Shown piece by piece: positions 8,457-22,808 of a DNA stretch of 64,000 nucleotides. The notes below the pieces were generated by a model. That model was not told where the DNA came from. It made no database searches and worked only from the letters and a program-made list of their open reading frames with translations. The stretch is from positions 248,001 to 312,000 of the forward strand of contig NZ_FOKW01000002.1 of NCBI RefSeq assembly GCF_900112205.1, given 5' to 3'. Source of the DNA: Natronobacterium haloterrestre. GTDB taxonomy: Archaea; Halobacteriota; Halobacteria; Halobacteriales; Natrialbaceae. Positions within the stretch are counted from its first letter, which is position 1. Each line of letters starts with the position of its first letter. The position numbers were made by a program, and so were the translations under genes.

Positions 8457-8638
8457 ATAACGGGATACATACGCCGGGAGTATAACCGAACCCCGTAATT
8501 CCCGGGGTATGAAAACATCCGCTACGAAAGCCGATCATATTCGTCCAGGGGTCAAAAACGGGGTTCGACACCGGGTCCCCCGGGGACCACCAGCCGCCAG
8601 ACTCGGCGTTTCGCGACCGACTGTGACCCGTTCCGGGA

Positions 8639-8722
8639 TACGGATTGCTGTCCCTCCCGATGTACCGGCGCAACCGCGACCCGGACGGCAGTTGCGCCGG
8701 AACTGACGGACAGTAACCCCTA
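8639..8722 (-). repeat. 84-bp hairpin repeat element, copy 1 (3' of sepF)
   Basis: Read on the minus strand it begins TAGGGGTTACTGTCC and ends GGACAGCAATCCGTA, ends that pair as imperfect terminal inverted repeats. Inside, CCGGCGCAAC pairs perfectly with GTTGCGCCGG. It matches copy 2 at 22543-22622 over its whole length apart from a 4-nt insertion and eight substitutions. It lies 21 bp beyond the sepF stop codon in the sepF sense direction. It could be a REP/MITE-type element, a terminator or a 3'-UTR RNA. Confidence 0.8.
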
Positions 8723-8743
8723 TCAGTCGAGCCCCGAACCGGA

Positions 8744-9106
8744 TCAGTGCGACTGGCCGAGCTTCTCGCGGCTGATCCGAACGCCCGTCGGCGTGATGAT
8801 CATCTGGTCGTCGCCTTTCCGGACGATGTCGCCGTCGACCTCCTGGGCGACCTGTCGCAACTCGTCGACGATGTGTTCGACGGTGCTGTCCTCGGTCCGC
8901 AGCCGCGTGACGTCGGCGATGACGATGTCCCCATCGTAGACTGCGTCCTTGATATCGATCGCGTCGGCCTGGCCGCTAACCTCGGCGATATGTACCTGCA
9001 TCGTCGCCGCTGCCGACTCCGACGACACGTCGTCGAGGTCCAGTTCGACGTAGTCCTCGGCGGTGCGTGACTGATCGCCGCCGAGAATTTTGCTCATGAG
9101 TCCCAT
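8744..9106 (-). CDS. sepF: cell division protein SepF (archaeal)
   Basis: A 120-residue protein. A short N-terminal MGLMSKILGG segment resembles the amphipathic membrane-targeting helix of SepF. The SepF core follows (ADAIDIKDAVYDGDIVIADV to VRISREKLG). In archaea with FtsZ, SepF anchors the FtsZ ring to the membrane and replaces FtsA. Start ATG 9106 is supported by a TATA-like ACTATACTGG about 27 bp upstream. The gene stands alone and is divergent from the DUF1028 gene. The hairpin repeat follows its stop codon. Confidence 0.95.
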   Translation of the reverse strand: MGLMSKILGGDQSRTAEDYVELDLDDVSSESAAATMQVHIAEVSGQADAIDIKDAVYDGDIVIADVTRLRTEDSTVEHIVDELRQVAQEVDGDIVRKGDDQMIITPTGVRISREKLGQSH

Positions 9107-20538: not shown

Positions 20539-20565
20539 ATGATAGATCGGTCTCGAAGGGCGCTT

Positions 20566-22542
20566 GTGAGCGATACCACAGACGTGAAACTCGAATCGAG
20601 ACTCGAGGAACAGGAGACCTTCGAACCGCCGAAGTCGTTCGTCGAGCAAGCGAACGTCACGAATCCCGCGATTCGTACGGAGTTCGAAGAGAATTGGCCC
20701 GAGTGCTGGGAACGCGCCGCTGAGTTCCTCTCGTGGGATCGGGAGTACGACAGCGTCGTCGACGCTGCCAACGCACCACAGTACGAGTGGTTCACTGGCG
20801 GTCGACTCAACGCCTCGTACAACTGTCTCGACCGTCACATCGAAGATGGTGCAAAGAACCGCGCCGCAATCAAATGGGAAGGGGAACTTGGCGAAACCCG
20901 TACGTATACCTACGGCGAGTTGCTGAACGAGGTAGAAGCGTTCGCCGCGGCGTTACGCGAGATGGGCGTCGAGGCGGGCGATGTCGTTACCCTGTATCTG
21001 CCGATGGTTCCGGAACTACCGATCGCGATGCTGGCGTGTGCCCGCCTCGGCGCACCCCACTCGGTCGTCTTCGCTGGATTTTCGGCGGATGCTCTGGCGA
21101 CCCGAATGCAATCGTCGGACAGCGAGTATCTCGTCACGTGCGACGGGTACTACCGTCGCGGGGAGGCGCTAAATCACGGGCAGAAAGTCAAGAACGGGCT
21201 TCGAAACGTCGACCACGACGTCGAGTCGATCGTCGTTGATCGGCTCGGTGATGAGTCGCATTTGTCGTTCGGTGACGGTACCCACGATTACGGCGCTCTC
21301 GTCGCCGAACACGAGGGTACATCGGTACCGGCGGTCTCGCGAGACGCCGAGGACGTGCTGTTCCTGTTGTACACGTCGGGAACGACGGGACAGCCGAAAG
21401 GCGTCGAGCACGCGACCGGCGGCTACCTCTCCTACGTTGCCTGGACTGCCCACGCAGTACTGGACCTGGAACCGACGGATACCCACTGGTGTACGGCGGA
21501 CGTCGGCTGGATCACGGGCCACTCCTATGTCGTCTACGGGCCGCTGGCGCTCGGCGCGACGACCTTCATGTACGAGGGAACGCCGGACTATCCCGATCGT
21601 GATCGGTTCTGGAAACTTATCGAAAAGAACCGAGTCGACGTCTTCTACACGGCACCGACGGCGATCCGAGCGTTCATGAAGTGGGGCAAAGAGTACCCCG
21701 CGAACCACGACCTCTCGAGTTTGCGGCTGCTCGGATCCGTCGGCGAACCGATCGACCCACACGCCTGGAAGTGGTACTACAAACACATCGGCGGCGAAGA
21801 GTGTCCGGTCGTCGACACCTGGTGGCAGACCGAAACGGGTGGCACGATGGTCACGACCGTACCGGGGATCGACACGATGAAACCCGGCGCCGCAGGCCCG
21901 GCCCTGCCAGGAATCGACGCCCGCGTGGTCGACGCCGACGGTAGCCCGGTTGCGTCCGGGAACGCGGGGTATCTCGTGATCCGGAACCCCTGGCCTGGGA
22001 TGCTCCGGACCCTCTACGGGAACGACGAGCGGTTCCGTTCCGAGTATTGGGGAGAGTATTCGGATCCCGACGAAGACGAGTGGATCTATTTCCCTGAAGA
22101 CGGCGCGAAGATCGACGATGACGGATACATCACCGTCCTCGGCCGCGTCGACGACGTGATCAACGTCTCCGGCCATCGGCTGGGAACCATGGAGATCGAA
22201 TCCGCGATCGTCGACGTTGCGGGCGTCGCCGAGGCGGCCGTCGTCGGGGCTGATCACGACGTCAAAGGCGAGGCCGTCTACGCGTACGTCGTCTTGAAGA
22301 ACGGTGAAGAACCGACTGTTGCAATGCGTGATCGAATCGTTGAAAGCGTCGAGGACGGGATCGGCCCGATCGCACGGCCTGAAAAAGTCGTCTTCACGTC
22401 CGAACTTCCAAAGACGCGATCGGACAAGATCATGCGACGACTCCTCGAGAACATCGCGAACGGCGAGGAACTGGGCGATACGTCCACGCTCAGGAATCCG
22501 GACGCCGTGGATACGATCGCTCGACAAGTGGGGGACGACTGA
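20566..22542 (+). CDS. acs: acetate-CoA ligase (AMP-forming, acetyl-CoA synthetase)
   Basis: A 658-residue enzyme activating acetate to acetyl-CoA via acetyl-AMP. Motifs are YTSGTTGQPKGVEH (AMP/phosphate loop), VDTWWQTETGG (acetate pocket Trp), a WIYFPEDGAKIDDDGYITVLGRVDD hinge, and TRSDKIMRR with the catalytic, acetylation-prone Lys. I use GTG 20566, giving MSDTTDVKLESRLEEQ as in haloarchaeal relatives; ATG 20539 is in frame and would add nine residues with an almost leaderless message. The gene lies between direct repeats of a regulator's 3' end, and its third codon positions look less G+C-rich than neighbours, hinting at separate history. A hairpin repeat starts right after the stop codon. 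Confidence 0.95.
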   Translation: MSDTTDVKLESRLEEQETFEPPKSFVEQANVTNPAIRTEFEENWPECWERAAEFLSWDREYDSVVDAANAPQYEWFTGGRLNASYNCLDRHIEDGAKNRAAIKWEGELGETRTYTYGELLNEVEAFAAALREMGVEAGDVVTLYLPMVPELPIAMLACARLGAPHSVVFAGFSADALATRMQSSDSEYLVTCDGYYRRGEALNHGQKVKNGLRNVDHDVESIVVDRLGDESHLSFGDGTHDYGALVAEHEGTSVPAVSRDAEDVLFLLYTSGTTGQPKGVEHATGGYLSYVAWTAHAVLDLEPTDTHWCTADVGWITGHSYVVYGPLALGATTFMYEGTPDYPDRDRFWKLIEKNRVDVFYTAPTAIRAFMKWGKEYPANHDLSSLRLLGSVGEPIDPHAWKWYYKHIGGEECPVVDTWWQTETGGTMVTTVPGIDTMKPGAAGPALPGIDARVVDADGSPVASGNAGYLVIRNPWPGMLRTLYGNDERFRSEYWGEYSDPDEDEWIYFPEDGAKIDDDGYITVLGRVDDVINVSGHRLGTMEIESAIVDVAGVAEAAVVGADHDVKGEAVYAYVVLKNGEEPTVAMRDRIVESVEDGIGPIARPEKVVFTSELPKTRSDKIMRRLLENIANGEELGDTSTLRNPDAVDTIARQVGDD

Positions 22543-22622
22543 TACGGGTTACTGTCCATCAGTTCCGGCGCAACTGTCGCCCAGGTCGCGGTTGTGCCGG
22601 GACATCGGGACAGCAGTCCGTA
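22543..22622 (+). repeat. 80-bp hairpin repeat element, copy 2 (directly 3' of acs)
   Basis: It begins TACGGGTTACTGTCC at the base after the acs TGA and ends GGACAGCAGTCCGTA; these arms pair at 14 of 15 positions if G-U pairs are allowed. The inner arms CCGGCGCAAC and GTTGTGCCGG pair with one G-U. Copy 1 lies at 8639-8722 on the opposite strand. The wobble pairs are retained only in the acs sense orientation, which favours a transcribed RNA hairpin. Confidence 0.82.
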
Positions 22623-22808
22623 TGAGCCGTCGTCGCGTCCTCGTGTGACTACGGTCCGCTCGGAACCGGCGCCAGCGACGCGCTCGTGATACTGGTGGCC
22701 AGCATTCCCTGAAGCCGATCGCTCTCCTGGAGTCGTCACCGTTTCCGACGACGTCGAATTCACGATAGGCTTGTATTGACCTGTTTCGATGAGGTCGCCG
22801 GGAAGGAG

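Follow-up and report, generated by a model that had tools for sequence, protein, structure and literature searches.

The hairpin at positions 8,639 to 8,722 of the window (the whole 64-kb stretch of DNA analyzed here) is, with a probability of about 0.9, a copy of an 80-bp mobile element, MITE-like and non-autonomous, with the layout TACGG...CCGTA. The element inserts at the center of the palindrome GWC-TSA-GWC and is flanked by a 3-bp TSA duplication of its target. Comparison with other genomes showed that it has transposed after the divergence of the sister species and that it has relatives in several families of the Halobacteria. Its foldback shape probably serves the mobility of the DNA element itself rather than the mRNA of its host.

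Two copies of the element in the window

The only copies within the 64-kb window were the following two, which both have exactly the core TA(C/G)GG...CCGTA and were 87% identical in a search of the own genome (E = 8.7e-26). The features were located as follows.

8636-8638, minus strand: other target duplicate of copy 1, degenerated to TCC; TGA in the G081 ortholog
8639-8722, minus strand: copy 1 of the mobile element, 84 bp (own-genome search and covariance-model match C16:256633-256728)
8723-8725, minus strand: TGA target duplicate beside copy 1, within GACTGA, 18 bp past the sepF stop
8744-9106, minus strand: sepF, the gene upstream of copy 1 (Pfam SepF, 2.8e-16)
20539-22542, plus strand: acetyl-CoA synthetase-like gene, the stop of which is the target of copy 2 (Pfam AMP-binding, 4.4e-86, and ACAS_N)
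22540-22542, plus strand: TGA target duplicate of copy 2, identical with the stop codon of that gene
22543-22622, plus strand: copy 2 of the mobile element, 80 bp (own-genome search and covariance-model match)
22543-22557, plus strand: left terminal inverted repeat of copy 2 (sequence, pairing table)
22558-22561, plus strand: fixed unpaired segment of copy 2, left side (family GTCA, 91 to 104 of 108 copies)
22565-22577, plus strand: left arm of the inner stem of copy 2 (pairing table)
22588-22600, plus strand: right arm of the inner stem of copy 2 (pairing table)
22604-22607, plus strand: fixed unpaired segment of copy 2, right side (ATCG; pairing table)
22608-22622, plus strand: right terminal inverted repeat of copy 2 (sequence, pairing table)
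22623-22625, plus strand: second TGA target duplicate of copy 2 (flank and comparison with the empty site in G081)

A preliminary description of this DNA had reported the repeat pair together with a 4-nt indel, imperfect terminal repeats of 15 nt, and a strong inner stem, and all of these are present in the sequence. The GACTGA that it noted in front of both copies is likewise real, and its TGA is the first copy of the 3-bp target duplication. The 4-nt insertion in copy 1 is specific to the own lineage; the ortholog at the same site in the sister species G081 lacks it and has TGA flanks on both sides. Insertion of copy 1 on an older sepF stop was considered and ruled out, as the orthologs place the sepF stop upstream, with copy 1 lying 18 bp past it. 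The sepF gene of G083 has a degenerate element of its own, placed right on the TGA stop (L197/L403), at a position that differs from that of copy 1, implying that this gene end was struck twice independently. The sole Rfam match in the window was a tRNA gene on the minus strand at 1229-1309.

Copy number and anatomy

A search of the 4.5-Mb own genome with one copy recovered about 40 places. A covariance model built from 29 copies, an approach proposed in the preliminary description, raised this number to 72 distinct places, the weakest four of which had E values above 0.001. The element is thus short, non-coding, and dispersed (80 bp, about 72 copies), as is typical for MITEs. The core has approximately the layout TACGGTTTACTGTNNGTCAKTTCCGGCGCAACCGC-loop-GCGGTTGCGCCGGTAMATCGNNACAGCAATCCGTA. 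Nearly all copies carry the imperfect outer 15-bp terminal inverted repeats (TACGG..CTGT), in which mismatches are frequent at positions 6/75 and 9/72. Next comes a 4 × 4 segment, GTCA/ATCG, which is unpaired and at the same time nearly invariant, and then an inner stem of 13 bp, which is paired in most copies. The central loop was found in both orientations relative to the arms.

Evidence for transposition

The core is flanked by directly repeated triplets (TGA, TCA, or TTA on both sides). The middle base of the two flanks agreed in 55 of 59 good own-genome copies, compared with 27.5 ± 3.8 when the right flanks were shuffled (0 of 1000 shuffles). The flank columns lie inside the covariance model, which may therefore favor the outer T and A; the agreement of the middle base is not modeled. 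No enrichment of an inverted relation between the flanks was seen in the same 59 copies. Among 96 copies from five other genomes, the middle base agreed in 91, and the duplication was exact in 79.

The close relative G081 provided the corresponding empty sites: the site of copy 2 and others were empty exactly to the base, with a single TGA. Of 59 loci queried between the two genomes, 55 could be aligned, the looser of these comparisons being judged by eye; about 20 were empty or apparently empty, and the rest were occupied. The duplications were intact in all eight near-identical copies of one own-genome subfamily and in 27 of 28 mostly near-identical copies in G169, which belongs to another family of the order. 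Target duplications, empty sites in the sister species, and near-identical copies with intact duplications together establish that the dispersal is transposition and that it is recent in several lineages. The preliminary description had mentioned a small MITE with a preference for gene ends among its options, and this is the one borne out by the terminal inverted repeats, the target duplications, the empty sites, and the recent bursts.

The target copies also showed an asymmetric decay. In own-genome copies, the gene-distal one has changed to CGA, which is TCG on the element strand, predominantly at the left end (11 cases of TCG/TCA, versus 2 of TGA/CGA at the right end); examples are L069, L073, L079, L088, L096, L097, L109, L114, L115, and L119. 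The empty site corresponding to L109 in G081 reads TGA, the original state before decay to CGA.

Relatives and conservation of the foldback shape

Within the own family, the covariance model had matches in 94 of 125 genomes, representing 22 of 29 genera; across the class, it had matches in 91 of 292 sampled genomes. The named matching records were nearly all from Natrialbaceae (Natrinema, Natronorubrum, Natrialba, Halopiger, and others), and the phage records searched contained no match to the element. The relatives from four genomes in three other families retain TACGG...CCGTA and a CCGG at the base of the stem, and a TSA-type duplication was found in 27 or more of 30 of these copies. Over the 13 positions of the inner arm, mean identity to the Natrialbaceae arm was 5.7 for G169, 7.3 for G226, 9.0 for G177, and 10.9 for G315, yet 10.6 to 12.9 of the 13 positions pair in the inner stems of these four genomes. 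Within G226, copies differ from each other by compensatory changes, the arms reading GGATCGCC, GGTTCGCC, and GGGTCGCC, each with its complement. Thus, the foldback shape is conserved without its sequence. The conserved pairing could result from selection on a DNA hairpin or from one arm being corrected to match the other at replication. The fixed mismatched segment counts against simple correction along the whole length.

Turnover at occupied sites

Orthologous elements of the own genome and G081 were about 85% alike (median of 30), whereas the flanking gene ends mostly matched better (82-100%, most above 92%). At three orthologous sites (L063/L396, L075/L398, and L098/L400), the two sister species carry different subfamilies in the same orientation, and at two others (L076/L422 and L099/L439) the elements lie in opposite orientation. 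These differences suggest re-insertion or conversion at the same site. At the L104 locus, the stop codon that bears the 80-bp element in the own genome is occupied in G081 by a 107-bp member of a second family (TACTG...), again with the TGA duplication. The loop was inverted at orthologous sites L072/L450, L065/L424, and L077/L419 and in 5 of 26 scored near-identical copies of G169 (L360, L380, L383, L384, and L393). The turnover at fixed sites may stem from recurrent use of the target, gene conversion, or template switching.

Search for the mobilizing enzyme

A transposase supplied in trans would bind the inverted repeats and cut the target with a 3-nt stagger. Members of the IS1031 and IS427 groups of the IS5 family generate a 3-bp TNA target duplication, a property shared by the present element, and no insertion sequence with matching ends was found. 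Origin of the element as an ordinary MITE, by deletion from such an IS5-type insertion sequence, is a special case of the MITE reading and does not compete with it for probability. The TNA duplication and the palindromic target point in this direction, and a parent and its MITE may have only a few terminal bases in common (PMC3119063). The searches speak against it. Terminal-repeat patterns revealed no autonomous parent in the own genome, and no parent emerged from repeat pairs 90-4500 bp apart in 1.68 Mb of loci, where no pair of terminal repeats was spaced by 1-4 kb, or from a terminal-repeat scan of G169, a two-contig genome with young copies. The PF13586 transposase was absent from seven genomes, and in the same number of genomes the sampled PF01609 elements had ends, defined by comparison of copies, that differ from those of the hairpin. 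We consider an IS5-type parent possible but on balance doubtful. Viral contigs searched with the terminal-repeat pattern yielded one apparent 2.9-kb element with a matching TGA (L206), which was discarded as a chance match: it extends over probable tail genes, and the low-GC phage in question is unrelated.

A more far-reaching version of the MITE reading would be a lineage of mobile DNA hairpins spanning the class, lacking any transposon parent with matching ends and moving through a foldback (hairpin or cruciform) DNA intermediate, with stop codons as its evolved safe-harbor target. Such an intermediate would account for an inner stem that remains self-complementary while its sequence changes between families, for the fixed mismatched segment, and for loop inversion among near-identical G169 copies and at orthologous sites. 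We regard this version as speculative and rather unlikely.

Target site and stop codons

In the own genome, where genes were called by a codon-usage script of our own and not by a published gene finder, 57 of the 72 copies were at distance zero from a predicted gene 3' end, i.e. on the stop codon. TGA accounted for 56 of the occupied stops and TAA for 1, compared with 292 TGA, 127 TAG, and 127 TAA in the background; the absence of TAG follows from the TNA rule of the target. The consensus at these stop sites is GAC-TGA-GNC. The share of copies on stops was also high in G015 (26/34), G081 (6/7), and G083 (3/3) and was lower in G118 (11/32), G080 (7/20), G169 (15/28), and G177 (5/19). DDE_Tnp_1 matches number 45 in G080, which belongs to the genus of the own genome, and many of the elements sampled there are off stops; the own genome (G000) has 2 such matches and most of its elements on stops.

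Gene ends of the form Asp-TGA fit the target, and upon insertion the duplication would restore the stop codon. The bias toward stops may then arise because insertions there are harmless and retained, whereas insertions within genes are lost. Alternatively, the stop codon itself, and not a DNA motif, might be recognized, for instance if insertion were coupled to translation termination. When non-coding opportunity was weighted by the motif, stops accounted for an expected 42-50%, and 79% was observed (p = 1.3e-10 and 3.3e-7); the expectation already favors stops since the motif matrix was trained on stop sites. The excess is what recognition of stops would produce, and it indicates that motif and survival may be an incomplete account. 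However, the same palindrome, GWC-TSA-GWC, was found at 32 non-stop sites in other genomes, only a minority of the sampled copies in G118 and G080 are on stops, and TAG stops are never used. The occurrence of the motif at non-stop sites led us to drop stop recognition as the main cause, and we now consider it unlikely.

The hairpin as a possible RNA element

The preliminary description favored structure at the RNA level, such as a 3'-UTR stability element, a processed small RNA, or a terminator. A hairpin co-transcribed with the upstream gene, acting as an mRNA stabilizer, terminator, or source of small RNA, would be in agreement with the strong predicted fold, with the location of most own-genome copies directly after a stop codon, and with inner stems that stay paired through compensatory changes both between and within genomes. 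The orientation of the copies is at variance with such a role. The sense orientation that was described holds for the two copies in the window and fails for the family, in which 22 stop-codon copies are sense and 35 antisense to the gene. An RNA of the upstream gene should tolerate one-sided changes of the G-U type only in the transcribed direction. Sense copies had 20 G-T against 22 A-C changes and antisense copies 12 against 13 (Fisher p = 1), which contradicts the earlier claim that pairing is kept only in the direction of the preceding gene; the strand-specific pattern belongs to the two copies compared, both of which have the same element orientation. Furthermore, the RNAalifold covariation term was just -0.13 for the own copies, the hairpin is not followed by a T-run and had no Rfam match, many copies in G118, G080, and G177 lie away from gene ends, and sites are empty in the sister species. 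A primary RNA function is therefore very unlikely. As a near-palindrome could work in both orientations, a secondary effect at the RNA level may exist. The preliminary description named additional copies with random orientation and position and without preserved pairing as evidence that would refute it; the orientation of the additional copies is indeed mixed, whereas their position is non-random and their pairing is conserved. For haloarchaeal hairpins just past stop codons in general, annotation as terminators or 3'-UTR RNAs should await a test of orientation.

Comparison with known mobile repeats

No description of the 80-bp element was found among the titles and abstracts of open-licence papers; subscription papers and ISfinder were outside this scope, and a prior description is possible. 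MITEs, PATEs, and SMRs have been described for Haloquadratum walsbyi (PMC3119063). Like the present element, the MITEs and SMRs of this organism are short, non-coding, bounded by terminal inverted repeats, and present in many copies with strain-specific insertions; the MITEs also duplicate their target, some of them moved although no intact transposase was found, and an 80-bp SMR was reported (PMC3119063). SMRs, however, do not duplicate the target and insert into other mobile elements, whereas the present element has a 3-bp TSA duplication and is found on stops, and the H. walsbyi MITEs are tied to known transposons, whereas the present element has no known parent; this distinction is based on the published descriptions (PMC3119063). 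PATEs are haloarchaeal, non-coding, and palindromic as well, but they are derived from IS605-type elements and have neither terminal inverted repeats nor target duplications (PMC3119063). Transposition in the manner of PATEs or REPs, as single-stranded DNA mobilized by an IS200/IS605-type (or RAYT) enzyme, is hardly credible, for although the foldback shape and the loop inversion in young copies would suit a hairpin intermediate, the true terminal inverted repeats and the constant 3-bp target duplication already contradict it.

Among bacterial repeats, ERIC, Correia/NEMIS, and RUP are comparable to the present element as intergenic foldback sequences of about 100 bp that duplicate their target and mostly have no known parent, but they have TA at their ends instead of a 3-bp TSA in a 9-bp palindrome with a strong stop bias (PMC2229807). 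YPAL of Yersinia is likewise a palindromic mobile repeat that often lies downstream of genes and has empty and filled sites, but it is 168 bp long, lacks terminal inverted repeats, and has duplications of 3-26 bp (PMC2229807).

The target palindrome of the present element coincides with Asp-TGA, a common stop context of the acidic haloarchaeal proteins, and the duplication gives the stop codon back. The element is thus a clean natural example of safe-site insertion, and its family allows insertion, turnover, and loop inversion to be traced throughout an archaeal class.

A second palindromic family

A second palindromic family of 107-108 bp, with ends TACTGYCGGACAGA, has the same TSA duplication. 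Copies were located at L423 (1397-1503), L436 (1621-1727), and L319 (4172-4279 and 8827-8933), and at the L118 locus a second-family element directly adjoins an 80-bp element. Searches of viral contigs with the terminal pattern of this family gave low-GC chance matches only. A copy with 99% identity resides on plasmid pHLAJ5I of Halobiforma lacisalsi.
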